49,732 bases of DNA, from positions 1 through 49,732 of the forward strand of contig NZ_QHHQ01000015.1 of NCBI RefSeq assembly GCF_003258595.1. Reading direction: 5' to 3'. Below, one piece after another: positions 28,448 through 46,270 of this stretch (the stretch's first letter is position 1; the number at the start of each line of letters is the position of its first letter). A program made the translations under genes and the position numbers. The notes below the pieces were generated by a model, which was not told where the DNA came from, did not search any database, and was given only the letters and a program-made list of their open reading frames with translations. This stretch comes from Acuticoccus sediminis (GTDB lineage Bacteria > Pseudomonadota > Alphaproteobacteria > Rhizobiales > Amorphaceae).

Positions 28448-28454
28448 CTGGACT

Positions 28455-30428: not shown

Positions 30429-30578
30429 GCGGCCTGCCGAGCGCTGAGCGCTGAGCGCCCAGTGTGGAACAGCGGCAGCCTACCGCTCAACGCGCCCCAT
30501 CACATGCACGTTTGCGTCGGCGCCCGCGTGCACACTCGGAAAACCCGAAGACCATCCACGACACCGGAGCATTCGACA

Positions 30579-31043
30579 ATGTCAAGGACAAGCCTTCTCC
30601 GCGCCGCAATGCTCGCCGTTGCGGCCATGGGAGTCACCCCGGCAATCGCCGCCGACCCGTCCGAGCACACCATGCACGTCTACAAGACGCCCTGGTGCGG
30701 CTGCTGCGGCTCGTGGACTGACTACATGAAAAGCCTCGGATACAGGGTCGAAGTGACAGAGCTGGACGATCTGACCTCACTTCGCCGCCAAGCGGCGGTT
30801 CCTGACGAGGTTCGGGGATGCCACATCACTGCTGTCGACGGCTACGTGCTGGAGGGACACGTCCCACCCGAGGCCATCGCCAAACTGCTCGACGAGCGCC
30901 CGGATGTTCACGGAATCGCAGTTCCCGGAATGCCGCGCGGTTCGATCGGCATGGGAGATGATCCGAAGGCAAGGTACGATGTCGTGACCTTTGGCGCGGG
31001 CACCGCACAGAATAGCTCAATATTCTACCAGGCGGGCCGCTGA
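30579..31043 (+). CDS. DUF411 periplasmic metal-binding protein (second copy)
   Basis: A 154-residue secreted protein from the ATG at 30579 with the DUF411 site YKTPWCGCCGSWTDYMKSLG, then GCHITAVDGYVLEGHVP and GIAVPGMPRGSIGM. It is a paralogue of the protein at 15668-16171. The upstream open frame to 30462 has no supporting similarity. One base separates its stop from the next gene. Confidence 0.85.
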   Translation: MSRTSLLRAAMLAVAAMGVTPAIAADPSEHTMHVYKTPWCGCCGSWTDYMKSLGYRVEVTELDDLTSLRRQAAVPDEVRGCHITAVDGYVLEGHVPPEAIAKLLDERPDVHGIAVPGMPRGSIGMGDDPKARYDVVTFGAGTAQNSSIFYQAGR

Positions 31044-31044
31044 C

Positions 31045-31716
31045 ATGATCGACCGGCGGACCTTTCTTCTCGGCGGCGGGACAGCGCTTGTCGGCGGCTG
31101 CACGATGGCGCAGACGCCGCCTCCGCAGACGGGTGGCACCGGCCAGGTGCCCCCCGTCTACCAGGCGATCTATGGCCCGCGTCCGGACGAGCGGTTCCCC
31201 ATCCCGGCCGTGGATCTCGCCCGTGTAGACGCGATTTACTGGCGCCGAGAAGTGGCGAACCCCACGGGCGAGCGGCCCGGCATGGTCGTCGTCGATACCG
31301 GTAGCTTTTATCTCTACTGGACCATGGGAGGCGGCCGGGCGATGCGCTATGGCGTCGGACTCGGTCGCGAAGGGTTCGGATGGGACGGCACCGCAACGAT
31401 TGAGCGCAAGCAGGCGTGGCCGACCTGGACGCCGCCGGCCGAGATGATCGCTCGCGAGCCGGAGCTTGAGCAATATCGCAACGGCATGGATCCCGGCCTC
31501 GGCAACCCGCTTGGCGCCCGTGCGCTCTACCTCTACCAGGACGGCCGCGACACGCTCTACCGCCTGCACGGTACGCAGGAAGCGCATTCGATCGGCCGGG
31601 CCGTCTCCTCAGGATGCGTGCGCCTTCTGAACCAGGACGTCATCGATCTCTACGAGCGCGTCCCGGACGGCACCCGCGTCGTCGTCCGTCCCCCCAGCAA
31701 TCCGCTTCTCGGGTAA
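31045..31716 (+). CDS. L,D-transpeptidase lipoprotein
   Basis: A 223-residue protein with a twin-arginine/lipobox start (RRTFLLGGGTALVGGC) and an ErfK/YbiS catalytic domain. YRLHGTQEAHSIGRAVSSGC ends in the active Cys, followed by VRLLNQDV. It cross-links peptidoglycan or anchors proteins to it. Its place between a DUF411 and a cytochrome gene of a copper cluster is unusual, since such enzymes are copper-sensitive in other bacteria (established knowledge). The start at 31045 is two bases after the DUF411 stop. Confidence 0.85.
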   Translation: MIDRRTFLLGGGTALVGGCTMAQTPPPQTGGTGQVPPVYQAIYGPRPDERFPIPAVDLARVDAIYWRREVANPTGERPGMVVVDTGSFYLYWTMGGGRAMRYGVGLGREGFGWDGTATIERKQAWPTWTPPAEMIAREPELEQYRNGMDPGLGNPLGARALYLYQDGRDTLYRLHGTQEAHSIGRAVSSGCVRLLNQDVIDLYERVPDGTRVVVRPPSNPLLG

Positions 31717-31722
31717 ACGCTT

Positions 31723-32214
31723 ATGCAGAGAAAACGTGCCGTCATCATGATCGGCGTCGGCATTGCGATTGGTATCGCGGTAATGGCAGGTGCTGTGCTG
31801 TGGCTCGATCCTGGCCCAGCTCAGTCTATCGAGTTGAAGTCGGGCGATACTGCTGTGATCGCGGAGGGAGAAAAAGTCTACGCGGCGCAATGCGCCGCCT
31901 GCCACGGTGCAAACCTCGAGGGCCAGCCGAACTGGCGTGATCGCGGACCCGACGGGCGACTCCCTGCGCCGCCGCACGACGAGACGGGTCATACCTGGCA
32001 CCACGCCGACGTGCTGCTCTTCGAGCTGACCAAGTACGGCCCTCCGAAGGAGATGGGCAACGGTGAGCCGTACTACTCGAATATGCCAGCTTTCGAGAAT
32101 GTCCTGACGGACGACGAGATCATCGCCACCCTTTCCTACATCAAGAGTCGCTGGCCGGCCGATATTCGCCGCCGCCACGACCAGATGAATGCCCAGATTG
32201 CGGCGCAGCGATGA
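31723..32214 (+). CDS. Membrane-anchored monohaem c-type cytochrome
   Basis: A 163-residue protein with an N-terminal helix ([20 protein letters not shown]), a CAACH haem site and [17 protein letters not shown], shared almost exactly with the cytochrome at 15050-15535. It overlaps the DsbD start by four bases. The pair of paralogues in two copper clusters argues for duplication of a functional module. Confidence 0.85.
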
Positions 32215-34274
32215 TCGCCGCGACGCGCTTTATCCTATCACTCAGCCTCGTCCTGTCGTTGACGGTTGCGGCCGTCGCAGCGACGCCGTGGCAGGAGCGA
32301 TCGAACAGCGCGGCCCGCCTGCACGTGGCCGTCAATGACGACGGCCAGATTGTCGCGGGCCTTGAGGTCCGGCTCGATGACGGGTGGAAAACCTACTGGC
32401 GTTCAGCGGGATCAACGGGGCTGCCGCCGCAAATCGACACGGAGGGCTCTGTCAACGTCGCCAGCTTCCGCGTCGCATACCCCGCGCCAGAGCGGTTCGT
32501 CGCGTTCGGCATCGAGGCTCTAGGTTATTCGCACACCGTGACGTTCCCCGTCACAATCGAGCGGTCCAACGCCGACCAAGGCGCACGCCTCGCGCTCCGG
32601 GCAGGTCTCCTCGTCTGCGGTAGGGTGTGCGTGCCGGAACGGTACGAGTTCAGTACTCCGGTTCCGGCCGATCTAGCGCTTCTTCCGCGCGCCGAGGATA
32701 CACCCATCGCCGACGCGATGGCCAAGGTTCCGGTCCCGGCGCTCGACGCCGATGTCGCTCTGGCCCTTCTCGCGGCGACGGAGGAGGGACTGTCCGTCAC
32801 GCTTAAGGCGTTCGGCGACCGCGCTCCGCGTCTCGACGATGCGCTGATCGTGGCGGAAGTCGAGGGCGAGGATCCCTTAATCGGCCGTCTGGCGCATAGG
32901 GGTGGAGGTCGCTTCGCCGCCACGCTTGCTGGTCCGACGCTGCCGTCTCCGGGCACTGAAGTGCGCCTGACTGTGGCCGGAAAGGGACTCGCGCTGGATC
33001 TGTCCGGCACCGTCGCGACCGCCGTCATTCCCACAGCAGCGCCAACGGCCGAGCCCGCGCGAGGACTGGTGGCAATCTTCCTCATCGCATTCCTCGGCGG
33101 CCTGATCCTCAACGCGATGCCGTGTGTCCTTCCTGTGCTGTCTATCAAGGTCGCAGCGCTCGGGCGCGCGACAATCCTGGAACGGCGGCAACAGCGGCTC
33201 GCCTTCCTTGCGACCGCCGGTGGCATTGCCGTCTTCATCATCCTTCTCGGCTCGGTCCTCAGCGCGTTGAAGGCGCTCGGGCGAGATGTCTTCTGGGGCA
33301 TGCAGTTCCAAGAGCCTGTCTTCGTGGCACTGCTGTTCGGGCTCTTCGTGCTCATGACGCTAAATCTCGCTGGAATCTTTGAATTCCGTCCGCCGGCTGG
33401 GCTACAGAACCGGCTCGGTCGGTTCGGTCGTACGGGAGATTTTGCGGACGGCTTCGTCATAGCGCTCGTCGCAACGCCATGCAGCGCGCCGTTTCTCGGT
33501 ACTGCGATCGGCTTCGGTCTCGCTGGCGGGCCGGGCGAGCTGGCGGTTGCGTTCGCTGCGCTCGGAGCCGGGTTCGCAGCACCCTACCTCGCCATAGCCG
33601 CTATCCCTCAGACGGTGTCGGTCCTGCCTAAGCCCGGGCAGTGGATGGCGTGGCTCCAGCGGGCACTCGCCCTTCCAATGCTCGGCGTTGTCGTCTGGCT
33701 GGCCTGGATCCTCGACTCGCAGGCGGGCGCGGACGCGCTTGCCGCCGCTGCAGTCGCCGCGCTCGCGGTCGCCGTGGCAGCTAACCGTCCTCGTCGCGTG
33801 ACTGTTGTCCTTGGAGCCGCGGTCGTAGTCGCCTCGACCGTTTACGTCGCGACCGACGTCGGATCGACCACCCCCCCAGAGCACACGGTAGAGGCCGGGG
33901 AGTGGAAGACATTCGACCGCGCAGCGATTGAGAGCCACGTCACCAAGGGTCATGTGGTTTTCGTGGATGTGACCGCCGACTGGTGCATCACGTGCGTCTA
34001 CAACAAGGCTGCTGCGCTGGACCGCGATGCAGTGCGTATCGAACTCGCCCGCCCCGACACGGTCGCCATGCGTGCCGACTGGACGCTTCCGGACGACGCG
34101 ATTGCCGATTTCGTAAAGGCGCAGGGCCGCTACGGCATTCCCCTCAATGTGGCTTTCGGTCCAGCCGCGCCCGAAGGCATCCTTCTACCGGAAATTCTGA
34201 CCGTTAGCACCGTGCTCGATGCCATTGCCACCGCGCGAGGCGACCGCGCTTCTGGCTCATCAAATAGGAAATAG
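32211..34274 (+). CDS. scsB: DsbD/ScsB thiol-disulfide transporter
   Basis: A 687-residue protein. A secreted N-terminal DsbD-alpha-like domain (about 20-260) is followed by a membrane domain with [13 protein letters not shown] and [14 protein letters not shown] (the transfer cysteines), and a C-terminal thioredoxin domain with [13 protein letters not shown]. It moves reducing power from cytoplasmic thioredoxin to periplasmic partners. ScsB-type members belong to copper-tolerance (suppressor of copper sensitivity) clusters, with a DsbA-like ScsC partner next to them, as here. Confidence 0.85.
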
Positions 34275-34277
34275 ACA

Positions 34278-35009
34278 ATGCTCAGAACCGCGATCATGGC
34301 GGCAATGCTTGCAATCACGGCAACTGGTGCCGCCGCCGAAAGCCTGACAGACCTCCAGAAGGATGAAGTGCGCGCGCTGATCCGTGATCATCTCATCGAA
34401 AACCCAGAAATTCTGGCCGAAGCGTTTGAGGCGCTCCAGGTACGGCAGCAAGCGGCGGAGACGGAATCCGTCAAGAACGCTCTCATCGAGATGGGCGACG
34501 CGATCCGCACCGCCGACAACGATCCTGTCGGTGGTAATCCCGACGGAATGATCACAGTCGTCGAGTTTTTCGACTACAATTGTCCATTCTGCCGCCGGGT
34601 AAAGCCTGAGGTCGCCGAGTTTTTGAAGAACGACGACCGTATTCGCTATGTCTTCAAGGAATTTCCCATCCTGTCCGCGTCATCCGCGCAGGCATCCCGT
34701 GCAGCACTCGCAGTTTGGAATTTGGCCCCGGAAAAGTATTGGGAGGTGCATCAGGCGCTCATGGGGCACGATGGCAACCTCACCGAGGATCAGATCCGCA
34801 TGGCAATCGAGGACGCTGCACTCGATTGGGACGCGATCGTTGCCCGAGGTCAAGCCGACGATATTACTGAGAAAATCCGTCAGACCCTCCGGATTGCCGA
34901 GCGTCTGAACATTAATGGCACGCCAACCTTCGTCATCGGCACTGAGATCATTCCAGGCTTTGTGGAAGCCGAACAGCTTGAGGCTGCGGTAACTCGGCTC
35001 GATGACTGA
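34278..35009 (+). CDS. scsC: DsbA-family protein, ScsC-like
   Basis: A 243-residue secreted thioredoxin-fold protein (signal RTAIMAAMLAITATGAAA). A helical N-terminal region (DEVRALIRDHLIENPEILAE) precedes the active site FDYNCPFCRRVKPE and the cis-Pro loop NGTPTFVIG. It matches the ScsC/DsbA-like oxidoreductase partner of ScsB and would keep copper-damaged periplasmic thiols in order. Four bases after the scsB stop. Confidence 0.85.
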   Translation: MLRTAIMAAMLAITATGAAAESLTDLQKDEVRALIRDHLIENPEILAEAFEALQVRQQAAETESVKNALIEMGDAIRTADNDPVGGNPDGMITVVEFFDYNCPFCRRVKPEVAEFLKNDDRIRYVFKEFPILSASSAQASRAALAVWNLAPEKYWEVHQALMGHDGNLTEDQIRMAIEDAALDWDAIVARGQADDITEKIRQTLRIAERLNINGTPTFVIGTEIIPGFVEAEQLEAAVTRLDD

Positions 35010-35251
35010 TTTCAAGGGCTGCGGGTCCGGCCGACACGCAAGCCCGGTTCGGCGTTAAGGAAAATTGTAACTTTGTTTTCTCGTCCGGAAAGCGCGCCAG
35101 AGGATGAGTGCAAGGCATTACTGTACTCGGCGGTGATGAACCCTTCGGTGGCGGGCAGGTTGGTGTGACCGGGCCGCAGTGCGGCAGTGTCGGATCAAAT
35201 GGGGGCATGACGCGTTGACCCACGAGTGTGCCTGACAGGATCGGAATACCG
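35010..35251. other. Intergenic gap with weak copper-box-like site
   Basis: This 242-base gap holds no gene. A short TTAAGGAAAATTGTAA (35055-35070) vaguely resembles boxes bound by copper two-component regulators. The match is weak and single. It may hold the promoter of the cytochrome-DUF305 pair. Confidence 0.25.
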
Positions 35252-35785
35252 ATGAGATTGATTGTGAGCGGGATCATCGGCGGGGTCGGGCTCGTCGCCA
35301 TCGTTGCGGTTACGGGGTTCGTCATCGTTTACACCGGCGCCTATAACGTCGCGGCCAGCGACGAGCACGCCGACTTCATTCGCTGGGCCTTTTCGACAAC
35401 CATGCACAGCTCAGTCGAGCGCCGCGCCGACGGTATCGCAGCGCCGGAATCCTTTTCCGATGACATGATCGCTGCCGGGGCGAGCCGGTACAAGGCGATG
35501 TGCGCCCATTGCCACGCCGGGCCTGGCGTCGAGCGCGCCGACTGGGCAGAAGGGATGCGACCGCAGCCACCGCACCTCATAGAGGCGGCCGCCGAGTGGG
35601 AAGCGCGGGAGATCTACTGGATCGTCGCGAACGGCATCAAGATGAGCGGCATGCCGGCGTTTGCCGCCAGCCACGATCCCGAGGAACTTTGGTCCCTCGT
35701 CGCCTTCGTCGACCGTCTGCCGGGTATGACGGCCGAAGACTATGCCGGTTACCCAGACCCGGACGAAAGCAGCCAGACCCGATAA
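35252..35785 (+). CDS. Monohaem c-type cytochrome, anchored
   Basis: A 177-residue protein from the ATG at 35252 with an N-terminal helix (LIVSGIIGGVGLVAIVAVTG) and one CAHCH haem site. IKMSGMPAFAASHDPEELWS provides the distal Met. It is not a close paralogue of the other two cytochromes. It lies just before the DUF305 gene and the nuo-like operon, so it could be an electron donor or acceptor for either. Confidence 0.8.
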   Translation: MRLIVSGIIGGVGLVAIVAVTGFVIVYTGAYNVAASDEHADFIRWAFSTTMHSSVERRADGIAAPESFSDDMIAAGASRYKAMCAHCHAGPGVERADWAEGMRPQPPHLIEAAAEWEAREIYWIVANGIKMSGMPAFAASHDPEELWSLVAFVDRLPGMTAEDYAGYPDPDESSQTR

Positions 35786-35805
35786 CTTCGCTGAGGAGCC
35801 CTGCG

Positions 35806-36705
35806 ATGTCCTATTTCCGATTCGGCGCGATGATCGCGACCTCGACCGTCGTCATGTTCGTGCTGATGTACCTCAATACATACGCTTGGGAGCACGTCTT
35901 CTACTCCGAGACGCGAACCTACATGGCGTTCCTGATGGGTGCGACGATGGCGGCCATCATGCTCGCCTTCATGTTGGGCATGTACACGAACACGAAGGCC
36001 AACATCGCGATCTTCGTGGGCGCGGTGGTGGTGTTCGCACTCTCGCTCTGGCTGGTGCGCAGCCAGGCGACCGTGAGCGGCGTCAGCTATATGCGGGCGA
36101 TGATCCCGCACCATTCGATCGCGATCATGACCAGCGAGCGGGCGCAGATCACCGACCCGCGGGTGCGCAAGCTCGCCGACGAGATCATCGAGGCGCAGCG
36201 CCGGGAGATCGCGGAGATGCGCTACCTGATCGCCGACATCAGCGGCGCAGGCGGCGTGGAGCGGCCCGAGACGATGGACGAGCCGCTGCCGGAGGTCGTG
36301 CCGGCGGAGGAGGCCGTCGAATCGCCCGTCGTCGCGGCGATGGACCCGGCGCCGCTGCAGGATGCAGACGTGGAGAAGGTTCTCGGCGCCGGTGCGGCTT
36401 GCCGATTCCACCGCTCGGCGGAGGCCGACCCGATCCTGGTCGCCGTCCCGGGCCAAGGTGGCGCGCGCGGGGTGATGAAGCTCAACGGGAAGCTTGTGGA
36501 GCTGGCTTCGGAGACCGGCGGGCTCGACGGGTTCGCGAACGGGACGATGCTGTCGGCGGGTCCGATCCACATGCGCGTCATGCCGGTCGCGGGTGCCGAG
36601 ACCGAAACCGAGGGCGACATGGCGAGCCGCAAGGCAGACCTCGTCTTCCAGCTCGATCAGGGGCTGACCGTCGGCTACCGTGGCCTCCTGAACTGCGAGG
36701 TGTGA
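35806..36705 (+). CDS. DUF305 protein with membrane anchor
   Basis: A 299-residue protein. Three N-terminal helices (about 6-25, 38-58, 64-84) are followed by a DUF305-like region (YMRAMIPHHSIAIMTSERAQ, then VRKLADEIIEAQRREIAEM), a ferritin-like fold linked to metal stress. A C-terminal extension of about 130 residues (RFHRSAEADPILVAVPGQGG onwards) is not part of DUF305 and is unassigned. The ATG at 35806 follows GGAG. It is 129 bases before nuoA. Confidence 0.7.
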   Translation: MSYFRFGAMIATSTVVMFVLMYLNTYAWEHVFYSETRTYMAFLMGATMAAIMLAFMLGMYTNTKANIAIFVGAVVVFALSLWLVRSQATVSGVSYMRAMIPHHSIAIMTSERAQITDPRVRKLADEIIEAQRREIAEMRYLIADISGAGGVERPETMDEPLPEVVPAEEAVESPVVAAMDPAPLQDADVEKVLGAGAACRFHRSAEADPILVAVPGQGGARGVMKLNGKLVELASETGGLDGFANGTMLSAGPIHMRVMPVAGAETETEGDMASRKADLVFQLDQGLTVGYRGLLNCEV

Positions 36706-36833
36706 CGGCTCAGAGTCGGTCCGCGGCCGGAGCCTTGGCGGGGCCGGATCAGCCCGCCCGGGCATCATAAGGAAACATTCCCCCGGCACAGGTGTTCGCC
36801 AAGAGAGCAGCAGCAACGGAAGGTCGAACAGCA

Positions 36834-37178
36834 ATGACGACGCTTCTCGCCGTCCTCGGACTGACGGGCCTGTCCCTGGCGCTGGTGCTCGGCTCGCGGA
36901 AGGCGCTGGGCGGACACGATTCGCCCTGGCCGCAGCGGGCGCCTTTCCTCGGTGGCGGGTCGCCCGCGACACATGCCTGGCAGCGCTACCACGTGCGCTT
37001 CTACACGATGACCCTAGTCTTCATCGCCTTCGAGATGGAGATGATGTTCATGTACCCATGGGCGGTCGTCTTTGTCGAGGAAGGGCTGAAGGCGCTCGCC
37101 GAAATGGGGATGTTCCTCGCGATCCTCTCGATCGGCATCCTCTACGGCTGGCGCGAGGGGGTGTTCCGGTGGCAGTGA
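36834..37178 (+). CDS. nuoA: NuoA-like complex I membrane subunit
   Basis: A 114-residue protein with three helices. The conserved NuoA block FIAFEMEMMFMYPWAVVFVE holds Glu67 and Glu69, where standard NuoA has Asp-x-Glu, and the C terminus GILYGWREGVFRW fits NuoA. It starts a run of overlapping genes encoding only the membrane arm. NuoA normally sits beside the quinone site. The ATG at 36834 follows GGAAGG. Confidence 0.8.
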   Translation: MTTLLAVLGLTGLSLALVLGSRKALGGHDSPWPQRAPFLGGGSPATHAWQRYHVRFYTMTLVFIAFEMEMMFMYPWAVVFVEEGLKALAEMGMFLAILSIGILYGWREGVFRWQ

Positions 37179-38152
37179 CCCCTCTCCCGGTCTTCCCGGC
37201 CATCGGCGAAGGTGCGCTGGGTGCGGTCGAGCGGCTCGCGCTGGACCCGCACTTGCGGCTCGTCGCGACGCCGCGGGCGGCGCGGGTGCTTCTCGTGGCC
37301 GGGGCGCAACGGCCCGCCGATCGGCTCGCGCTCGCCAGCGTTCACGATCAGCTGCCGGCGCCGCGGCGCACGCTCTGGTGGCGCTCAGATCCGCTGCCCG
37401 GCCTCGATGCAGGCCGCCGCCTGCCGGACGACCTAGACGCGGCGGCAGCGACCCTTACCGCCGGGCTGGGCGAGGACGACGAGCCGGCAATCCTCGACGA
37501 CCGGCCGCCGAACCCGTGGGAGGGCATCGGCCCGCACGGACAGGGCGGCGAGGGTATGATGGGCGGCACACCCTACGGCCGGCCGATGCCCATGACCGCC
37601 GACGACCTGCGCGATGGGCTCGCGCTCGATCCCTATTCGGCGATGTTCGGGCCATATCTCGCCGCCTTCCCGCCGGGGCTTTCGCTCAGGATCACGCTTC
37701 AGGGGGACGTCATCCAGTCGGCCACGCCCATGTCGGCGCCCTATACGCAGGATGGGTTCGCCGCGACGCCGCACTGCGCCCTCGCCCGCGTGCTGCGCCT
37801 CATGGAGCTGCCAGCGCTTGCCGAGCGTCTGGTGCGTGCGGCCGCGGCGGATCCGGACGCGCCGAGGCCTAGACTGGCACGCGCCGTCCGCTGGTCCGGC
37901 TTGCTCGCGGCGATCCCGCCGGGGCTCGGGGCTGTCGGTGGCCGAGATGTGCGCGGGCGCGTCCGCGGGTTGATCGATGCGCTAACGAAAGGCACCCGTC
38001 GGGACGATGACGCCGTTCCGGACCTTGCCGGGCTTCTGCCGGGGCTCGAATGGCAGGAGGCGGTGCTTTGCCTGGTGAGCTTCGATCTCGCGCGGCTGCG
38101 TGAAGCGGCGGTGCCCCCGGCTGCGGCGCACGGGGGGAGAGCGGCAGCATGA
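37175..38152 (+). CDS. Unusual hydrophilic protein in the NuoB/C/D position
   Basis: A 325-residue protein (start GTG at 37175 overlapping the NuoA stop; 37169 also possible). Residues about 28-70 (PRAARVLLVAGAQRPADR, then LASVHDQLPAPRRTLWW) echo the NuoB stretch that precedes its cluster cysteines. Residues about 157-185 (FGPYLAAFPPGLSLRITLQG, then DVIQSATP) echo the N-terminal sheet of NuoD/49 kDa. Between them is a Gly-rich stretch (WEGIGPHGQGGEGMMGGTPY). Only two cysteines exist (201 and 299), so no N2-type cluster can form. I infer a degenerate, fused NuoB-NuoD remnant; the similarities are by eye and need structure prediction. Confidence 0.5.
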   Translation: MTPLPVFPAIGEGALGAVERLALDPHLRLVATPRAARVLLVAGAQRPADRLALASVHDQLPAPRRTLWWRSDPLPGLDAGRRLPDDLDAAAATLTAGLGEDDEPAILDDRPPNPWEGIGPHGQGGEGMMGGTPYGRPMPMTADDLRDGLALDPYSAMFGPYLAAFPPGLSLRITLQGDVIQSATPMSAPYTQDGFAATPHCALARVLRLMELPALAERLVRAAAADPDAPRPRLARAVRWSGLLAAIPPGLGAVGGRDVRGRVRGLIDALTKGTRRDDDAVPDLAGLLPGLEWQEAVLCLVSFDLARLREAAVPPAAAHGGRAAA

Positions 38153-39066
38153 GCCTCGCGGCGGTCCCGGCACTCTTCGTCTTCCTCGCGCTCGGAGCCG
38201 CGTTGGCCGCGGTGCTCGACGCAATGGCGCGGGCTGCGGTGGCGGGCGCCCCCGTCGCGCAGGCCGCCGGCGCTCCGTTTCGTGTCGGCCGGGCGCTCCT
38301 TGCCCGGCAGACCATTTCAACCGAAGCGCCAGACCGGGCGAACTGGCGGCTCGCTCCGGCGTGGTATGGCGCGCTCGCGGCGGTGGGTCTTTCGGTGGTG
38401 CCATTTGCCGATGGCCTCGCGCTGGTGCAGCTGCCGAGCGGCATCGTGCTGTGGGGCGCTGTCGAGGCGCTGACGGTTGTCGTCGTCTTCCTGCACGGCT
38501 GGTCGCCCAACGCGCCGTTCCCGCTGATCGGCGCCTATCGCTACGTGGCGACGGGGCTACCCGTGATGCTGCCGTCGATGTTCGCGCTGATCGCGGCGGC
38601 GCTGCCGGCCCGCTCGCTCGACGTGGTGGCCATCGTAGAGAGCCAGCGCGGGATGTGGAACCTCGTGCCCCAGCCGCTCGGCCTGCCGCTGTTCCTCATC
38701 GTCGGCCTCTCCCTCACCTTGCGCGGGCCGATGGACTATGCCGATTCCGCCGACCTTTCCGGCGGCACCAGCGCGGAAGACTCCGGCGCCGCCCGCGCGC
38801 TCTGGCAGGCGGCGCGGCTCGCCATGCTCGTCTCGTTCGCGGCGATGGGCGCGACGGTCTTCCTCGGCGGCCATCTCGGCCCGGTGCTGCCGGGGCCGCT
38901 CTGGCTGGCCCTCAAGACAGCGATCGTGATGGCGCTGCTGGTGGCCCTCACCCACCTCGTGCCGCGCATGCCGGTCTCGCGCATGGTGACGCTCCTGTGG
39001 GTCGTCCTCCTGCCGCTGTCGTTCCTCCACCTCCTGCAGGCCGGGCTGGCGGCGCTATGGCTGTGA
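38149..39066 (+). CDS. nuoH: NuoH-like complex I subunit, divergent
   Basis: A 305-residue, about eight-helix protein that starts with ATGA overlap. The strongest match to NuoH is GWSPNAPFPLIGAYRYVATG (117-136), equivalent to the GW-x-SN-KY-x-LGA-R segment. Family acidic residues after it look changed: the next residues are LPVMLPSMFA rather than a Glu-containing helix. The PFDLPEAE-type loop is replaced by RGPMDYADSADLSGG (192-206). This suggests loss or alteration of the quinone/E-channel function. Confidence 0.7.
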   Translation: MSLAAVPALFVFLALGAALAAVLDAMARAAVAGAPVAQAAGAPFRVGRALLARQTISTEAPDRANWRLAPAWYGALAAVGLSVVPFADGLALVQLPSGIVLWGAVEALTVVVVFLHGWSPNAPFPLIGAYRYVATGLPVMLPSMFALIAAALPARSLDVVAIVESQRGMWNLVPQPLGLPLFLIVGLSLTLRGPMDYADSADLSGGTSAEDSGAARALWQAARLAMLVSFAAMGATVFLGGHLGPVLPGPLWLALKTAIVMALLVALTHLVPRMPVSRMVTLLWVVLLPLSFLHLLQAGLAALWL

Positions 39067-39710
39067 CGGACATTCTGTTCATCGCGCTCTCGGCGCTCGC
39101 GCTCTGGGCGGGCTGGCGGGTCTTCCGCGTCGACTCCATGGTGCGGGCGAGCTTCTGGCTCATGCTCTCCTTCTTCGCCGTGGGCGGGATCGCGCTCTTG
39201 TTGTCGGCGCCCTATATCGGCGTCGCCACCGTCTTCATGATGGCGGTGGAGATGATGGTCATGGCCCTCTTCATGGTCATGTTCATGATGAACCCTGCCG
39301 GGCTCAACCCGATGCAGATGGTCCACCAGCATCGCCTGTCGATCGCCGCCGGTGCGCTCGCCTTCGCCGGGCTCGCCGCTGCCGTGCTTCTCACCGAGCT
39401 GCCCTCCGACCCTGTCGCGGCCGACACGCGCGTGGTCCACGATCTCGGCATCGAGCTTCTGGGCTCGTCCATGCTGATCTTCGAGACGGCCGGCGTCACG
39501 CTGCTCGCCACGATGGTCGCCGCCGTCATCCTGTCTGCCAGGAGCGGGCGCTACGGCGACGCATGGGAAGGCGCCGTGCCGCCGGGGCTGGAGCCGGGTG
39601 GCACCCCCGCCGGCCGCGTACCGGACGAGGAAGGTGGCCACCATGCCCACCATGGCCACGACGACGGCGGGCACGGACACGGCGGTCACCACCACGGGGG
39701 GCACGCATGA
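39057..39710 (+). CDS. nuoJ: NuoJ-like subunit with His-rich tail
   Basis: A 217-residue protein with five helices in NuoJ arrangement. The family-critical third helix reads APYIGVATVFMMAVEMMVMA with Glu65 and many methionines. The last 25 residues (EEGGHHAHHGHDDGGHGHGG, then HHHGGHA) hold 11 histidines, an extension I do not know from typical NuoJ. It may bind metal ions at the membrane surface. The ATG at 39057 overlaps the nuoH end by 10 bases; a GTG at 39063 is an alternative. Confidence 0.75.
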   Translation: MAVTDILFIALSALALWAGWRVFRVDSMVRASFWLMLSFFAVGGIALLLSAPYIGVATVFMMAVEMMVMALFMVMFMMNPAGLNPMQMVHQHRLSIAAGALAFAGLAAAVLLTELPSDPVAADTRVVHDLGIELLGSSMLIFETAGVTLLATMVAAVILSARSGRYGDAWEGAVPPGLEPGGTPAGRVPDEEGGHHAHHGHDDGGHGHGGHHHGGHA

Positions 39711-40012
39711 CCTTGGCATCCGTTCTCATCGTCGCCGCCGGGCTCGTCGGGATCGGGCTCTACGGGGCGCTGTCGCAACAGTCGTTCGTGATGCTGATGA
39801 TGGGCATCGAACTGATGCTGAACGGCGCGCTGCTGGCGACGCTCGGCTTCTGGTCATTCGCCCTCGGCGGCGCGCCGGAGGGGCAGCTTCTCGCCATCCT
39901 CATCATGGCAGTGATGGCGGTCGAAATGGCGGTGGGCTTCGCGCTGGTGGTCGCGGTCTACCGCGCCCGGCAGGCTGACGTCATCGAGAGCCTAGGGACG
40001 CTGAAGGAATGA
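39707..40012 (+). CDS. nuoK: NuoK-like subunit
   Basis: A 101-residue three-helix protein. The two membrane glutamates essential in NuoK are present: Glu35 in MMGIELMLN and Glu73 in AVEMAVGFALVV. ATGA overlap with nuoJ. Conservation of both residues argues that the proton path is under selection. Confidence 0.85.
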   Translation: MTLASVLIVAAGLVGIGLYGALSQQSFVMLMMGIELMLNGALLATLGFWSFALGGAPEGQLLAILIMAVMAVEMAVGFALVVAVYRARQADVIESLGTLKE

Positions 40013-41913
40013 TGCTCGCCCTCGTCGCCGCCCTCCCCGTCCTCTCCGGTTTCGCCCTCGTCCTCGCCGTGCCGGAGCGTAGCCGCGCACTCGCCGCCGC
40101 GGCTGGCCTCGTGCTCGCGCTGGTCGTCGCGCTCGCCGCGGCGGTCGCCATCGCGGACGCTCGCCTCGCCATCGTGTGGACGGGCGCGCTTGGCCTTCAT
40201 GCAGGGCTGACGCCGCTGTCGGCGGTGATGCTCGTCCTCGTGCCGCTTGTCGCCCTCCCGGTCACCGTCCACGCCGCACTGAACGAGGAGGAACCCGCGC
40301 TCGCCCGCCTTGTCGGGCTGATGCTGGTGTTCGTCGGCGGCATGGAGCTGGTCGTGATGGCGGACGACCTGCTGACGCTTCTCATCGGATGGGAGGTGAT
40401 TGGCGCGGCGTCCTGGGCGCTTGTCGCCCACCGCTGGCGGGACAGCCACGCCGTTTCGTCCGGCGCCTGGGCCTTCCTCGTCACGCGCACCGGCGACGTG
40501 GGGCTGTTCCTCGCCGTGATGGTACTGTTCGCCGCCACGGGTTCGCTGGGCTTCGAGGCGCTCGGCGAACTCGCCGGGTGGCCCCTCGCCCTCGCGGCCA
40601 GCGGGCTGCTCGTCTCGGCGGCGGCGAAGGCGGGGCAGGTGCCGTTCTCGCCGTGGCTCTTCCGCGCGATGGACGCGCCGGCCTCTGTCTCGGCGCTGCT
40701 GCACGCCGCGACGCTCGTCGCCGCCGGCGCCTACCTCGTCGCGCGGGTGGAACCTCACCTCGCCGGCACGGGATTCGGCGACGTGGCCATAGCCGTCGGC
40801 CTCGTTACCGCGATCGCCGGCGGTGTGGTCGCGATGCTGCAGAACCACGTCAAGAAGCTGCTCGCAGCCTCCACTTCGGCGCAGCTCGGCCTCATGTTCG
40901 TCGCGGCGGGAGCGGGATACCCGGCCGTCGCGATCCTCCACCTCGTCGCCCACGCGCTCTACAAGGCGCCGCTGTTCCTCGCTGCCGGGCTCGCGCACGA
41001 GATTCGCGGCACCTACGCGCTCCATCGCCTCGGCCTCGGCAGGTCCACGCCGCTTCTCGCGCTGGCGGCTCTGGCCCCTGCGCTGGCGCTCGCCGGCGTG
41101 CCGCCGCTGGGCGGAGCGTGGACGAAGGAAGAGATCGTTTCCGCCGCGGGACATGCGAGCCTTTGGCTCTCGCTTCTCGTCACCCTCGCTGGCGGGCTGA
41201 GCGCAGCCTATGCGACGCGATACCAGAGGCTCGCCTTCGGCCGCGGGGCGGAGACGCCGCGCGACCGGCTCCCCTCCGTCGCCGCTCTCGCGCCGATCCT
41301 TGCGCTGTCAGCGGCTTCGCTCGGCCTCGCTGTCCTGTGGTTGCCGGCTGTTTCCGAGCGGGTGGCGCGTTGGCTGGGGGGCGAGGTTCCGGCCGGGACC
41401 GTCCTCGAGCTTGTCCTCTCGCTCGCGCTGGTCGCGGTCGGGATCGTTTTCGGCCTCGCCCTCGCGGCCCGCGCGCCGCGTCTCGGCGCCGAGGGGCGAA
41501 GCGCGGCCTTCTCCGACTGGCTGGGCCTGCCCTGGCTCCTCGAGCATGCCATTGCCCGGCCGGTGCAGGGGCTGGCGCACCACCTCGGGCGGATCGACGA
41601 CCGCGCGCTTGACGCCCTGCCGCGTGCGGTGCGCGACGCGTCGGCGGCCGTGCCGCAGCGGCTGGCCGCGGTGGACAACGCCGTGGTCGACGGCGGGGTG
41701 CGCCTCGCGGCCGCCCTCTGGCGGTGGCTGGCGCGCGTGCTCGACCGGTTCGGCGAATTGGGGGCGGAGGGGCTTCCCTCCGGCAGCGCCTTCCTCGTCG
41801 GCCTCGCCGGGGCGGAAGCGCGGCGGGTGCAGACGGGCTTTTCTCACCACTATTACGTGATCCTCGTGGCGGGCCTCCTCGCGGCGGTCGCCGTGCTCGC
41901 GATCGGAGCGTGA
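40009..41913 (+). CDS. nuoL: NuoL-like antiporter subunit
   Basis: A 634-residue Mrp-type antiporter subunit. Key residues are kept: Glu129 in GWEVIGAASW, Lys207 in AKAGQVPFSPWL, His311 and Lys319 in HLVAHALYKAPLF, and a KEE motif in WTKEEIVSAAG. The C terminus carries the long lateral-helix region and a final helix (YVILVAGLLAAVAVLAIGA). ATGA overlap with nuoK. It should pump H+ or Na+ in the assembled complex. Confidence 0.85.
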   Translation: MMLALVAALPVLSGFALVLAVPERSRALAAAAGLVLALVVALAAAVAIADARLAIVWTGALGLHAGLTPLSAVMLVLVPLVALPVTVHAALNEEEPALARLVGLMLVFVGGMELVVMADDLLTLLIGWEVIGAASWALVAHRWRDSHAVSSGAWAFLVTRTGDVGLFLAVMVLFAATGSLGFEALGELAGWPLALAASGLLVSAAAKAGQVPFSPWLFRAMDAPASVSALLHAATLVAAGAYLVARVEPHLAGTGFGDVAIAVGLVTAIAGGVVAMLQNHVKKLLAASTSAQLGLMFVAAGAGYPAVAILHLVAHALYKAPLFLAAGLAHEIRGTYALHRLGLGRSTPLLALAALAPALALAGVPPLGGAWTKEEIVSAAGHASLWLSLLVTLAGGLSAAYATRYQRLAFGRGAETPRDRLPSVAALAPILALSAASLGLAVLWLPAVSERVARWLGGEVPAGTVLELVLSLALVAVGIVFGLALAARAPRLGAEGRSAAFSDWLGLPWLLEHAIARPVQGLAHHLGRIDDRALDALPRAVRDASAAVPQRLAAVDNAVVDGGVRLAAALWRWLARVLDRFGELGAEGLPSGSAFLVGLAGAEARRVQTGFSHHYYVILVAGLLAAVAVLAIGA

Positions 41914-41914
41914 C

Positions 41915-43417
41915 ATGCTGACACTTGCCATCTTCCTCCCGCTCGCCGGCGCTCTCGTCCTCCTCACCGCGCCCGGGCTGACGGAGCGAACCCTGCGCCA
42001 GCTCGCGGTGGCGCTCGCCGCGGTGCCGTTCCTCCTGCTTCTGGTGGCGTGGACGCGGTTCGATACCGGCGGCGCCGCCTTCCAGCTCGTGGAGGAGGCG
42101 CCATGGGTGCCGGCGCTCGGCGTCGCCTGGCGCGTCGGCGTCGACGGCATCTCGCTGGCGCTGGCGTTGATGACGGCGCTGGTGTTCCTCGCCGCCGTCG
42201 CGTGGCCGATGGAGCGCGCCGAGCGGGTGCGCCAGTACTACGCCTGGTTCCTGTTCCTGGAGGCGATGTCGCTCGGCCTCTTCCTGACGCTCGACCTCCT
42301 GTTTTTCTACGTCTTCTTCGACCTCTCGCTGGTCGGCATGTTCTTCCTGATCGGCCGGTGGGGGCACGGCGAGCGGCAGGCGGCGGCGCTAAAATTCTTC
42401 ATCTACACCTTCGTCGGCTCCCTCGCGATCCTGCTCGCCATCATCGCGCTCGTCCTGTCGACGGACCCGCTCACCTTCGACATGCGAACCCTCATCGCCG
42501 AGCAGCCGCTGGCCGGCGCCGGGCCGATGGCAACGCTCGTCTTCCTCGGCTTTGTCGCCGGCTTCGCGATCAAGACGCCGCTCTTCCCGGTGCACACCTG
42601 GCTTCCGCCCGCGCATGTCGACGCGCCCGGGCCGGCCTCGGCGATCCTCGCGGCCGTGCTCCTCAAGATGGGCACGTACGGGATGGTGCGCATGCCGCTC
42701 CAGATGCTGCCCGAGGCGTTCGCGGCCTATGCGCTGCCGCTTGCGGTGCTGGCGCTCGTCTCGATCCTGTGGGGCGCACTGGTCGCCTTCGGCCAAACCT
42801 CCATTAAGCGGCGGATCGCCTACACCTCCGTCAACCACATGGGCTACACGGTGCTCGGCATTGCCGCGGCGGGGGCGCTTCTGTCGGGCGAGGAGGCCGC
42901 CCGGCAGCTCGCGCTGACAGGCGCTGTGGTGGAGATGGTGGCGCACGGCCTCATCACCGGGGCGCTGTTCCTGATCGCCGGCGGCATCTGGGCGCGGGCC
43001 GGGACCTATGAAATGGACCGCTTCGGGGGCCTCGCCGCCGTCGCCCCGAAGCTGACAGTGGCGACGGTGGTGGCCGCCTTCGCCAGCCTCGGCCTGCCGG
43101 GCCTCGCTGGGTTCGTGGCCGAGGTGCAGATCTTCGTCGGCACCTTCGCGGTGTTCCCGTGGCTCGCCGCGATCGGACTTCTGGGCATCCTCGTCACCGC
43201 GGCGCTGTTCCTGACGATGCTGCGGCAGGTCTTCTTCGGCCCGCTCGCGCAGGAGCGGCGCGCGTTCCCCGACGTCGGCCGCGTCGAGCTCGCGGTGCTG
43301 GCGGGGATGATGGCGCTGGTGATCCTGATCGGGGTCTATCCGACGTGGCTGCTCGACATGGTGAACGCGGCGACCGGCGCCATCGTCGCCTCGGCCGCAC
43401 CCGCAAACGGGGGCTGA
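41915..43417 (+). CDS. nuoM: NuoM-like antiporter subunit
   Basis: A 500-residue NuoM homologue with GFAIKTPLFPVHTWLPPAH (Lys220) and GLPGLAGFVAEVQIFVG. The usual catalytic Glu of the fifth helix is Asp136 here (FFYVFFDLSLVGMFFLIG). It starts one base after the nuoL stop. It is otherwise full length. Confidence 0.85.
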   Translation: MLTLAIFLPLAGALVLLTAPGLTERTLRQLAVALAAVPFLLLLVAWTRFDTGGAAFQLVEEAPWVPALGVAWRVGVDGISLALALMTALVFLAAVAWPMERAERVRQYYAWFLFLEAMSLGLFLTLDLLFFYVFFDLSLVGMFFLIGRWGHGERQAAALKFFIYTFVGSLAILLAIIALVLSTDPLTFDMRTLIAEQPLAGAGPMATLVFLGFVAGFAIKTPLFPVHTWLPPAHVDAPGPASAILAAVLLKMGTYGMVRMPLQMLPEAFAAYALPLAVLALVSILWGALVAFGQTSIKRRIAYTSVNHMGYTVLGIAAAGALLSGEEAARQLALTGAVVEMVAHGLITGALFLIAGGIWARAGTYEMDRFGGLAAVAPKLTVATVVAAFASLGLPGLAGFVAEVQIFVGTFAVFPWLAAIGLLGILVTAALFLTMLRQVFFGPLAQERRAFPDVGRVELAVLAGMMALVILIGVYPTWLLDMVNAATGAIVASAAPANGG

Positions 43418-43421
43418 GGCA

Positions 43422-44831
43422 ATGCCCGTCGGCGACCTCGCACCGGAGATCGCCGTCCTTCTGACGGCGGCCGCGGCGCTCCTCTTCGCATCGTTCGTGT
43501 CGCGGTCGTGGCACTGGTTTAGCGCCGTGATCGCGCTGTCCGGCCTCACCGTCGCGGCCATCCTGCTCGCCCAGCAGGTCGGCCGCACCGGGACCACCTT
43601 CAGCGGCACCTGGGCCATCGACGGCGCGAGCGTCTGGGCGCGGTTCGCGATCCTCGGCGCGAGCGGCCTCTGCATCATGATCTCGCCCGGCTGGTTCGCC
43701 ACCGACAGGCGGCACGGCGAGGTCTACACGATGTTCCTCCTCTCCACCCTCGGCGCGATGGCGCTCGCCGGCGCGGCAGACCTCCTGCAGCTTGTCGTAG
43801 CGGTGCTGCTGTCGTCCGTCACCGGCTATACGCTGGCCGCCTACCATCGCGGGTGGGCGATCTCGGTGGAGGCGGGGATGAAGTACTTCCTCGTCGGCGC
43901 GCTGGCCAACGCCGTGCTGGTGACCGGTGTCGTCCTCGTCACCGGCATGGCGGGCGCGACGGGCTACGAGCCGCTCGCATCGGCCTTCGCGGCCGGCCTG
44001 GAAGCGTCGCCGCTGCTTCTCGCCGGCCTCGCGATGGTGGTCGTAGGCATCGCCTACAAGCTGGGCGCCGTGCCGGCGCACGCCTGGGTGCCCGACGTCG
44101 CGGAGGGAGCGCCCGTGCCGGCGGCCGCGTTTCTCACGATCGTGCCGAAGATCGGTGCGGCGGTGGCGCTCGCCCGCCTCGTCGCCGTGGTACCGCCCGA
44201 CGCGCTGCCGATCCGCTCGCTCGTCGCCATCCTCGCCGCCGCCACGATGACGCTCGGCAATCTCGCCGCGCTGTGGCAGGACGATGTGCGCCGGCTGATC
44301 GGCTGGTCCTCGGTCAGCCAGGCCGGCTACGTGATGATGGCGGTCGCGGTCATCGGGCTCGACGCGGGGGCCGTTCACGCCCTCCTTGCGATGGTCGGCG
44401 CCTATGCGCTCGCCAACCTCGCCGCATTCGCCGTGGTGGCGGACCTTCGCGGCCGCACGGCGCTGGTCGACTATCGCGGCCTGTTCGCGGCCCGGCCGCT
44501 CGACGCGCTCGTCCTGACGCTCGCCTTCCTGTCGCTGGTCGGGATCCCGCCGACCGTCGGGTTCTTCGGCAAGTTCACGGTGTTCAGCGTGACCATCGGC
44601 GCGGGCTACGGCTGGCTCACGCTCGTCGCGGCGGTCAACACGGCCGTCTCGCTGGCCTACTACGGCCGGGTCCTGAAGCACGCCGCATTCGAGGAGCCGG
44701 CAGGGACGATGGCGCGCCTGGACAGTGCGACGCTCACCGGAGTCGTCGCATCCGGCGCGGCGATCGTGGCGCTCGGTCTTGCCGCCGGGCCTGTCCTCGG
44801 TGGGCTGGTCGATGCTACCCTTCTACCATGA
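43422..44831 (+). CDS. nuoN: NuoN-like antiporter subunit
   Basis: A 469-residue NuoN homologue. Family blocks are GMKYFLVGALANAVLVTG, YKLGAVPAHAWVPDVAEGAP and VGIPPTVGFFGKFTVF. It is last gene of the operon nuoA-(B/D-like)-H-J-K-L-M-N; subunits C, E, F, G and I have no counterpart here. A hairpin follows at 44876. Confidence 0.85.
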   Translation: MPVGDLAPEIAVLLTAAAALLFASFVSRSWHWFSAVIALSGLTVAAILLAQQVGRTGTTFSGTWAIDGASVWARFAILGASGLCIMISPGWFATDRRHGEVYTMFLLSTLGAMALAGAADLLQLVVAVLLSSVTGYTLAAYHRGWAISVEAGMKYFLVGALANAVLVTGVVLVTGMAGATGYEPLASAFAAGLEASPLLLAGLAMVVVGIAYKLGAVPAHAWVPDVAEGAPVPAAAFLTIVPKIGAAVALARLVAVVPPDALPIRSLVAILAAATMTLGNLAALWQDDVRRLIGWSSVSQAGYVMMAVAVIGLDAGAVHALLAMVGAYALANLAAFAVVADLRGRTALVDYRGLFAARPLDALVLTLAFLSLVGIPPTVGFFGKFTVFSVTIGAGYGWLTLVAAVNTAVSLAYYGRVLKHAAFEEPAGTMARLDSATLTGVVASGAAIVALGLAAGPVLGGLVDATLLP

Positions 44832-45049: not shown

Positions 45050-46270
45050 TCAGCCGGCGAGGCGCGCGGCTCGGCCGGACGCGCGCTCCTGATCGCGGTA
45101 GTAGCGGACGGCGGCCTGGACGGAGCGGTGCAGCGAGTGGCGCATGGCGGCCTCGATAGGAACGCCTTGCAGCGAGGCTTCGGTGAGATAGCCCGCCCGC
45201 AACCCGTGCGCCGAAACCCGAGCCGCGTCGATGCCGGCACGCGCGGCCCGCGCCTTGACGATGGCGTTGACCGCATGGCCGGACAATGCGCCCTCGCCCA
45301 CCGCCCCCCAGCGATCGATGGCGCGGAAGATCGGGCCTTCGCGTGTGCCGGGCCGCACAGCGCCGAGCGCCGCGATCCAGGCCTCGAGGTGGGCCTGCGC
45401 CCGCCCCGTCACCACGAGGAAGGTGTCGTCCTCGGCCGACGTCGTCTTCGTGCGGCCGAGGATGATGGCAAGCCCGTGCGCCGCTTGCGCCGGCGCATCG
45501 ACGAGCGCCGCGCCGCGCGCCCCGTCCTGCTCCAGGCGGACCACCCGTTCCAGCCGCAGGAGGCCGAGCTCGGAGCGCCGCCGCCCGCCCGTGGCGAAGG
45601 CGACGAGCAGCAGCGTGCGGTCGCGCAGCTCGCGCAGGGACAGGGCGTCGCCGGGCAGCGGATCGGCCCCGATCATCCGGTCGAGAAGGGCGCGCGTCAC
45701 CGCCGTCTCGCTGTGGCGTTGCCGCGGCCGGTCGGCGGCCTTGCGGGCGGCGGCCAGCGTGCGGCGCACCGTGATGGAGGAGAGCGCCGCGTCGAACCCG
45801 CGCAGCTGCGCGATGCGCCGCCAGGAGGCGAGACGCCGCGCGACGGTCGCGGGCGCATGGGGCAGGGTCGTGCGCAGCATGCCCTCGGCCACCAGCGCCG
45901 CCTCGACCGCGGCCGGCATGCCGTAGCCGTCGCCGCGGACCGCGCGCTCCTCGGCCCGAAAAAGGTGATGGGCGATGAAGGCGAGCCCATCACCGTCGGC
46001 CGGCGGCCAGGCGAGGGGCGCGCCGCGCGCGGCCCGGTGCCAGGCCTCCAGATAGGCAAGGTCGGAGACGACGGCACGGACGGTGTTGTCCGGCACGGAT
46101 GCGCGCACGAGGTCCCGGAGTGTCTCGACATCGCCGGCCGTCAGGTGGCCGGCGAGCCGGTCCGCGGTGGCGACCGGCAGAAGGTCGACGAGGGCGTCGG
46201 CGACGCTCATCGCCGGTCCTGCAAGGGCGGGGGGAGGGAACCGCTTTGCATCATCCTGTGCCGTTGGCAT
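45050..46270 (-). CDS. Tyrosine recombinase/integrase
   Basis: A 406-residue site-specific recombinase. The C-terminal catalytic domain shows Arg in GGRRRSEL (about 230), Lys275 in GRTKT, SAHGLRAGYL (His355, Arg358), His378/381 in RHSLHRS and Tyr390 or 391 in AVRYYRD. The N-terminal half is the DNA-binding arm. It probably integrates or resolves the plasmid or island. It is divergent from the DUF1612 gene, with a palindrome array between them. Confidence 0.85.
   Translation of the reverse strand: MPTAQDDAKRFPPPALAGPAMSVADALVDLLPVATADRLAGHLTAGDVETLRDLVRASVPDNTVRAVVSDLAYLEAWHRAARGAPLAWPPADGDGLAFIAHHLFRAEERAVRGDGYGMPAAVEAALVAEGMLRTTLPHAPATVARRLASWRRIAQLRGFDAALSSITVRRTLAAARKAADRPRQRHSETAVTRALLDRMIGADPLPGDALSLRELRDRTLLLVAFATGGRRRSELGLLRLERVVRLEQDGARGAALVDAPAQAAHGLAIILGRTKTTSAEDDTFLVVTGRAQAHLEAWIAALGAVRPGTREGPIFRAIDRWGAVGEGALSGHAVNAIVKARAARAGIDAARVSAHGLRAGYLTEASLQGVPIEAAMRHSLHRSVQAAVRYYRDQERASGRAARLAG

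Follow-up and report, generated by a model that had tools for sequence, protein, structure and literature searches.

Respiratory complex I poses one central open question: how is quinone reduction coupled to proton pumping through the E-channel? A partial version of its operon, nuoA-hypothetical-HJKLMN, has been published as the partial NDH-1 'marine adaptation' operon, and has been interpreted there either as an NADH dehydrogenase that pumps protons or as osmoadaptation (PMC3314556, PMC4018334, PMC6002675, PMC6676996, PMC8622039). PMC6676996, which discusses a Streptomyces from copper-rich mine fluids among the bearers, reads the operon as osmoadaptation, and its figure legend describes the hypothetical proteins as without homologues in UniProt or PDB. 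The word copper does not occur in the available text of PMC3314556, PMC4018334 and PMC8622039, and among the titles, abstract openings and passages of open-licence literature that were searched no paper was found tying the operon to copper or identifying the hypothetical protein, here called X. The operon analysed here lies at positions 36834–44831 of a stretch of 49,732 nucleotides (the window, meaning that whole stretch) of contig NZ_QHHQ01000015.1 from Acuticoccus sediminis. By the published description it has the same seven subunits in the same order as the operon of Salinispora, Kocuria and Streptomyces, with the hypothetical gene between nuoA and nuoH (PMC6676996); that operon differs in having been interpreted in print as an NADH dehydrogenase or an osmoadaptation, and not as copper-linked. 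The initial annotation knew of no named system with this composition, which was wrong in part. We propose that the product of the operon is a membrane machine derived from complex I, stripped of electron transfer, which would serve copper homeostasis as a proton-driven Cu(I) exporter, a reading to which we give an even chance.

How does the operon compare with other described systems? It shares with respiratory complex I all seven membrane subunits and the channel residues of NuoK, NuoL and NuoM, but it lacks NuoC, NuoE, NuoF, NuoG and NuoI, its NuoB and NuoD appear fused and redox-dead, the E-channel glutamate of NuoH is mostly lost and the glutamate in transmembrane helix 5 (TM5) of NuoN always, and NuoA, NuoJ and NuoK are rich in methionine. 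Mrp cation/proton antiporters also combine antiporter-like subunits with the absence of a redox arm. The operon differs from them in its NuoA, its NuoH and its NuoB–NuoD remnant, with eight genes that leave no room for others, and in a tree its NuoL, NuoM and NuoN form clades apart from other antiporter-type sequences of the host genomes. Membrane-bound hydrogenase and formate hydrogenlyase (group 4 NiFe) likewise pair an antiporter-type membrane arm with proteins resembling NuoB and NuoD, but X has no Fe-S ligand set. CusA is a Cu(I) exporter with a methionine relay; exporters of this type resemble the proposed machine in their Met-lined Cu(I) path and in a similar gene neighbourhood, whereas the fold is unrelated.

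A nuo operon and its missing redox arm

The window is part of contig 15 of a 7.76 Mb genome, whose nearest named relative found is Acuticoccus sp. I52.16.1. The compact operon holds the following features, all on the plus strand:

36834–37178 (+): NuoA-like subunit (PF00507, E 3.9e-24); Met68, Met70 and Met73 family-fixed beside conserved acids E67 and E69; His53
37169–38152 (+): X, putative redox-dead NuoB–NuoD fusion of 327 residues (325 from the next start), from profile, model and fold search
37184–37459 (+): NuoB-like half of X, residues 6–97, without cysteine (model, Foldseek and sequence)
37511–37600 (+): linker of X, residues 115–144, carrying GQGGEGMMGGTPYGRPMPM, disordered in the AlphaFold model
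37634–38110 (+): truncated NuoD-like half of X, residues 156–314, aligned to longer homologues whose model resembles NuoD
38149–39066 (+): NuoH-like subunit (PF00146, E 1.6e-39); Met140 in place of the E-channel Glu, Arg in place of the canonical Glu at 223
39057–39710 (+): NuoJ-like subunit (PF00499, E 8.5e-19), with a His-rich C-terminal tail
39237–39326 (+): NuoJ TM3 and TM3–4 loop, with Met61, 62, 66, 69, 73, 77, 78, 86 and 88, Glu65 and His90 (fixed in 74/74)
39707–40012 (+): NuoK-like subunit (PF00420, E 9.1e-16); Glu35 and Glu73 retained, Met29, Met31, Met70 and Met74 family-fixed
40009–41913 (+): NuoL-like antiporter subunit (PF00361, E 2.3e-50), central-axis residues present
41915–43417 (+): NuoM-like antiporter subunit (PF00361, E 4.2e-61)
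43422–44831 (+): NuoN-like antiporter subunit (PF00361, E 6e-55), TM5 glutamate gone

All seven Nuo proteins score above their Pfam cut-offs and five junctions overlap, as expected from the initial description of seven membrane subunits in one operon; the L–M gap is 1 base and the M–N gap 4 bases. Against NCBIfam, NuoA, NuoH, NuoJ and NuoL fall far below the cut-offs of their best models, NuoN slightly below, and NuoK and NuoM pass one model each, so several of the window's Nuo proteins are divergent. A tblastn search (E<=1e-3) with all open reading frames (ORFs) of at least 100 residues from three stretches with canonical nuo operons found no redox-competent nuo gene in the window; its matches were homologues of NuoA, NuoH, NuoL, NuoM and NuoN only, plus one antisense match at 42104–42715. 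NuoC, NuoE, NuoF, NuoG and NuoI were neither found in the window by this search nor annotated in the intact operons viewed in other genomes. The initial annotation had listed NuoB and NuoD as absent too, and here it needs amending: because X is a NuoB–NuoD fusion, these two appear to persist as redox-dead remnants.

What is the evidence for X? A Pfam scan of the window's X gave a best E of 0.11, to an unrelated family. Searched with profile A1, the N-terminal region of X (positions 35–77) matches NuoB/PSST chains of the PDB (E 3.1e-8) and also NuoB-size frames in genomes; the profile further matches MbhJ (E 3e-6), with a weak hit to formate hydrogenlyase subunit 7 (E 0.045). Ten homologues of X were scanned with Pfam: the 49-kDa family PF00346 is above cut-off in eight, the two others (M. 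avium and Arthrobacter) have no match, and the NuoB family PF01058 appears below cut-off in two. The AlphaFold model of the window's X has a mean predicted local confidence (pLDDT) of 86.4; NuoB-like chains rank first with Foldseek (E 2.9e-3, probability 1.00, query TM-score about 0.2), and none reaches E 1e-3. For the longer X of Kushneria (pLDDT 85.4) the first-rank matches are 49-kDa/NuoD subunits over 370–444 columns (E 1e-5, probability 1.00, query TM-score 0.37–0.45). From the profile, Pfam and Foldseek matches X is, as judged by sequence and model, a degenerate NuoB–NuoD fusion without redox sites. An X wholly unrelated to complex I is ruled out by the profile matches, the Foldseek searches with two models and the Pfam matches of homologues. 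A single protein of 325 residues had been seen as taking the place of the peripheral arm; that protein is there, at 327 residues, but it is no foreign replacement.

The loss of the redox sites can be followed residue by residue. Cysteines were counted in X from 48 of the 60 loci L067–L126 (five with an internal stop and seven judged close or already included were omitted). At most one lies within the first 95 matched residues in 47 of the 48, the 48th has three adjacent cysteines and the window's X has none, so the four-Cys ligand set of the N2 [4Fe-4S] cluster is absent. The histidine of the canonical NuoD motif GPxHPxxHG, which we take to be the quinone-site histidine, is Pro in 35/35 X, and the conserved residues of the next canonical segment (DPHIGLLHRGTEKL in the host's own NuoD) are gapped in 35/35. 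Some NuoD residues persist, for example an Arg in 35/35. On sequence, then, the redox sites are gone from X and the complex cannot run NADH–quinone chemistry, as the initial annotation had supposed, or NADH-driven proton pumping.

Between the two halves lies a linker, and in the alignment homologues have an HMBD or a His/Met-rich insert at the same place. HMBD (PF19335) is present in 5/10 of the homologues scanned, and a pattern search anywhere in the protein assigned 15 of the 48 X to CxxC[GA]M, 32 to GM[MT]GG and 1 to a His/Met-rich type. The window's linker (GQGGEGMMGGTPYGRPMPM) has a pLDDT <50 at residues 115–135 and 137–144, and over 35 rows G129, M130, G132 and G133 are invariant and M131 and M140 nearly so. 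The linker thus looks to be of a metal-binding type. On two plasmids, of Methylobacterium fujisawaense and Rhodopseudomonas BAL398, the operon has all seven membrane subunits but no X, with NuoA directly overlapping NuoH (L063, 9602–16930, and L064, 9437–16795, respectively), and neither plasmid is among the matches listed when the plasmid collection was searched for X. In these operons a His/Met-rich stretch lies instead in NuoJ, between TM3 and TM4, and in a midpoint-rooted NuoM tree they branch outside the sampled X-bearing members.

Methionines and channel residues of the membrane arm

Eighteen Met columns are fixed across the family, all of them in NuoA, NuoJ and NuoK, and canonical homologues (60 NuoJ, 60 NuoK and 33 NuoA) have Met in at most three sequences, or <=5%, per column. 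In NuoJ these are Met28, 61, 62, 66, 69, 73, 77, 78, 86, 88 and 139, each 74/74; this count excludes the X-less L063 and L064 and also L130, for which the 77 loci hold no NuoJ row, and Met77 is alignment-dependent, being mostly Leu in the 60 canonical rows and Met in three rows of a smaller alignment. NuoK has Met29 (76/76), Met31 (72), Met70 (74) and Met74 (72), and NuoA has Met68 (73/76), Met70 and Met73 (76/76 each), with 0/33 in canonical NuoA at each column. Could base composition account for this? Met content is more than twice canonical in NuoA, NuoJ and NuoK and below canonical in NuoH, NuoL, NuoM and NuoN (with few canonical rows), so base composition is not the explanation. At NuoJ column 62 in TM3 the canonical residue is Tyr in 60/60 rows and in the family it is Met. 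On a helical wheel of NuoJ TM3 five of the seven Met (62, 66, 69, 73 and 77) lie inside 80 degrees. The Met-bearing NuoA, NuoJ and NuoK are the subunits that form the E-channel, and by sequence the changes in the membrane arm fall in a single place.

Channel residues were counted in 55–76 members per subunit, chosen by coverage and aligned with the E. coli homologues, with one canonical sequence each for NuoM and NuoN. NuoL retains E129, K207, K282, K319 and K373 in 55/55. NuoM has K220 and K251 in 69/69 and E403 in 68/69, and its TM5 acid is Asp in 45 and Glu in 24. E35 of NuoK is present in 76/76, and E73 is Glu in 71/76 and Asp in 5/76. NuoN keeps K243 and K384 in 69/69 and K213 in 60/69; its TM5 Glu is missing in 69/69, column 129 being Leu, Val, Gln or Phe. 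NuoH has Glu at the E-channel column in 10/74 and lacks it in 64/74, and a second Glu (223 in the window) is Arg in 72/74. The claim that the antiporter-like subunits keep their key residues therefore holds for NuoK E35/E73 and NuoL E129/K207, but not all key acids are kept, because the NuoN TM5 Glu and most of the NuoH E-channel Glu are lost. These altered NuoH and NuoN residues would fit a loss of quinone coupling.

Spread of the operon and its copper neighbourhood

Profile searches found X in 34/396 Actinomycetota genomes and in 40/151 Halomonadaceae (the family of Vreelandella maris), counts that include the genomes that supplied query rows. It is present in 4/10 genomes of the window's own family (3/9 without the window's). 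Among Alphaproteobacteria 126/385 genomes match at E<=1e-6, and full-length X occurs in 1/385, the window's own; the other matches cover model positions 33–79 only, at <=36.4 bits, and are read as canonical NuoB. The complete seven-subunit set is present in 69/77 loci examined, at least one of which is a duplicate (L059 and L136, equal in length, look like one plasmid). Gene order is conserved in Caenispirillum, Maritimibacter, Kushneria, Vreelandella, Altericroceibacterium and three further genomes from the same genus as the window, and in part, up to a contig end, in an actinomycete metagenome-assembled genome; the gene set recurs across Alphaproteobacteria, Gammaproteobacteria and Actinomycetota. 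Plasmids carry the operon in Acuticoccus, Roseivivax (twice), Halomonas KO116, Rubrobacter (NuoH annotated short), Mycobacterium avium, Arthrobacter FB24, Pseudonocardia, Sulfitobacter (X frame-broken) and Roseovarius. From this plasmid location and the spread over phyla we infer that the operon moved horizontally. In a tree of antiporter-type subunits the family's NuoL, NuoM and NuoN form one clade each (support 0.93, 0.96 and 0.45), apart from host genes, and the operon is thus a distinct unit; L228 and L234, the only other members of these clades, belong to the same genome as family member L014. Decayed copies also occur: in Vreelandella sulfidaeris the operon is reduced to short broken frames, and in Martelella mediterranea a truncated X is followed by a transposase. 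Two plasmid records, NZ_CP066787.1 (Martelella) and CP070277.1 ('Dysgonomonadaceae', cold seep), have an equal length of 166348 and equal match values, which suggests that one of them is mislabelled or contaminated.

Is the operon under selection? For a single pair, the window and Acuticoccus sp. I52.16.1, the ratio of nonsynonymous to synonymous substitution rates (dN/dS) is 0.195 for NuoA, 0.306 for X, 0.173 for NuoH, 0.171 for NuoJ, 0.109 for NuoK, 0.440 for NuoL, 0.182 for NuoM and 0.154 for NuoN, at dS 0.63–1.16. The operon is no accidental truncation, because dN/dS is 0.11–0.44 for the eight genes and the set recurs across phyla; such a truncation, which the initial annotation had named as a way to be wrong, is refuted for the window's copy, and a pseudogene is rejected likewise.

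The neighbours of the operon, which had been described as cytochrome c, DUF305 and copper genes, are borne out by Pfam matches in the window:

8669–10972 (+): P-type ATPase with a heavy-metal HMA domain (PF00122, PF00403)
18147–20687 (+): P-type ATPase with YHS and HMBD domains (PF00122, PF04945, PF19335)
24130–30428 (mixed strands): cupredoxin (-), multicopper oxidase (-), TolC-type outer-membrane protein (-) and second multicopper oxidase (+) (PF00127, PF07732, PF02321)
30462–35785 (+): DUF411, L,D-transpeptidase, cytochrome c, DsbD-like, ScsC-like DsbA and cytochrome c (Pfam)
35500–36705 (+): DUF305/DUF6692 gene directly upstream of nuoA (PF03713, E 1.7e-10), its true start probably within the ORF

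Rubrobacter, Rhodopseudomonas and Martelella share with the window a DUF305 gene immediately 5' of nuoA. Strong copper-resistance markers flank 38/65 loci and 0/21 controls (Fisher p 4e-7), the markers being derived from copper loci of this family, so that the test detects relatives of those genes. The controls were eight canonical nuoD loci (0/8) and 13 stretches from sufficiently long contigs (0/13), and five of the 65 loci are <11 kb long. From the Actinomycetota and Halomonadaceae searches 58 of 81 match rows were taken; the marker-bearing loci comprise 20/31 of Actinomycetota, 15/27 of Halomonadaceae and 3/7 of the remaining set. In a clustering of ORFs from 77 loci without preset markers a P-type ATPase leads (29 loci) and is followed by multicopper oxidase (19), metal-sensing repressor (18), DUF305 (14), response regulator (13), kinase (13) and CopB (12), a ranking that omits clusters judged by eye to be shadow ORFs, two of them large (25 and 20 loci). 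The genetic link between the operon and copper resistance is real and present in genomes of several phyla. The early suggestion of a link to metal stress is supported.

Other features of the window concern its architecture. GC content steps from about 0.60 to 0.70 near 36 kb (34001–38000), coinciding with the start of the operon, as if the operon had joined the copper island separately. An ORF at 45050–46270 (-) resembles a tyrosine recombinase by eye, with no Pfam match at 1e-5, and an annotated tyrosine recombinase likewise directly follows nuoN on M. avium pMAH135. At 275–4310 (-) a subtilase gene stands beside an AAA ATPase gene, with no copper connection seen; at 22001–24000 GC dips to 0.517 over a 343-residue ORF without a Pfam match at 1e-5. 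Scans of the window gave no tRNA, 0 promoter sites and 7 terminator-like sites (3.4 expected), and its repeats are short, GC-rich matches, mostly of low identity.

A proposed copper exporter and its alternatives

The proposed Cu(I) exporter builds on the gene set, the loss of the redox sites, the family-fixed methionines, the wide plasmid-borne spread and the copper neighbourhood. Assembly as one complex, copper as the carried ion, the direction of transport and its coupling to protons would follow in a mechanism of this kind: X would still cap the cytoplasmic face of NuoH/A/J, and its linker, through an HMBD, His/Met repeats or the GMMGG motif, would gather cytosolic Cu(I) and hand it to the Met-rich A/J/K junction, entry being via the NuoJ TM3–4 loop (Met86, Met88, His90). 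The ion would then travel a Met-lined path at the position of the E-channel (NuoJ TM3, NuoK, NuoA), proton movement via the intact sites of NuoL, NuoM and NuoK would power its outward transfer, and the exporter would operate beside P-type ATPases and multicopper oxidases. This specific version would be a new class of metal pump: the complex I scaffold, free of redox chemistry, would pump Cu(I) at the expense of the proton gradient, the Met relay standing in for the E-channel and the metal-loaded remnant for the quinone site as the coupling input. We hold it tentatively, at somewhat under an even chance.

Several points weigh against a Cu(I) exporter. Taken together, the seven TM3 Met of NuoJ show no significant clustering on one face of the helix (14% at random), and the fixed methionines could instead reflect a hydrophobic gate. 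The X-less Methylobacterium and Rhodopseudomonas operons have Tyr at NuoJ 62 and no Glu65, Met66 or Met78; with this incomplete set, the full complement of Met is dispensable in some relatives. NuoN K213 is Glu in 9/69. That GM[MT]GG binds metal is something we infer. No strong copper marker was found in 27/65 loci within the 4–21 kb of sequence taken, and the operon sits on plasmids and islands that gather metal genes anyway, with controls that are chromosomal-type stretches. Finally, the direction of transport is not readable from sequence.

Could the complex simply be an Mrp-like cation/proton antiporter, or handle protons passively, in response to stress by salt, osmolarity or pH, the copper genes being co-travellers on metal islands? 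A reading of this kind is in print for Salinispora, Streptomyces and Kocuria (PMC3314556, PMC4018334, PMC6002675, PMC6676996). Many bearers are marine or halophilic, among them the Halomonadaceae already counted, the channel residues of NuoK, NuoL and NuoM are intact, some loci have a channel for potassium or another ion, or an APC permease, close by, and 27/65 loci are free of strong copper markers. However, this account leaves unexplained the HMBD or Met/His-rich linker of X and why Met is fixed only in NuoA, NuoJ and NuoK, and relatives of the operon also occur on plasmids of soil, concrete and sputum isolates. To our knowledge, moreover, the Mrp subunit set has no counterpart of NuoA or NuoH. 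We regard it as unlikely, at roughly one chance in six. The Met path and X would equally suit import of Cu(I), or a proton channel gated by copper that tunes the proton-motive force under copper stress, but the nearby copper genes, where present, are mostly of the export and detoxification type, and we rate this slightly lower. Lower again stands a copper-driven redox enzyme, in which Cu between the B-like and D-like halves would replace N2 and oxidation of Cu(I) or quinol would drive pumping. The metal motif does lie between what were once the N2 and the quinone subunits, with cytochrome c and multicopper oxidase genes nearby; yet in every X aligned the His of the NuoD motif is Pro and the conserved residues of the segment after it are gapped, the linker is disordered in the model, two relatives have the operon without X, and the Cu(II)/Cu(I) couple yields little or no energy against quinone.

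Might the complex instead borrow the redox arm of the host's complex I? The canonical complex I of A. sediminis is separate, with NuoD and NuoA on contig 6 and NuoJ to NuoN on contig 3, so that its genes appear split between these two contigs. A NuoD-family match elsewhere in the genome (E<=1e-20) is present in 60/74 bearers, but 14/74 have none. Some of the 14 are fragmented assemblies; the case is clearest in G827, G942, G864 and G881, whose main contig is close to the whole genome. A shared arm is unlikely because of these 14, X already fills the B/D place, and the borrowed arm is rejected as very improbable. Least probable of all is a decaying or accidentally truncated nuo operon, for which the broken copies in Vreelandella sulfidaeris and Martelella speak and against which stand the dN/dS values, a gene set kept across phyla and the separate L/M/N clades.

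What would a Cu(I)-exporting relative of complex I mean? In this operon the redox input has been removed, the junction altered (Met for Tyr in NuoJ TM3, loss of Glu in NuoH and NuoN) and the NuoL, NuoM and NuoK channels kept, which makes the coupling element separately testable. If the reading is true, nature has run an experiment showing that quinone is not the only substrate to which the membrane arm of complex I can be coupled. The operon offers an alternative reading of the published 'marine adaptation' genes and points to a new copper-resistance machine, common in Halomonadaceae and found repeatedly in Actinomycetota, hidden under the annotation 'NADH-quinone oxidoreductase'. It also suggests that evolution may have converted a proton pump of respiration to the handling of copper.

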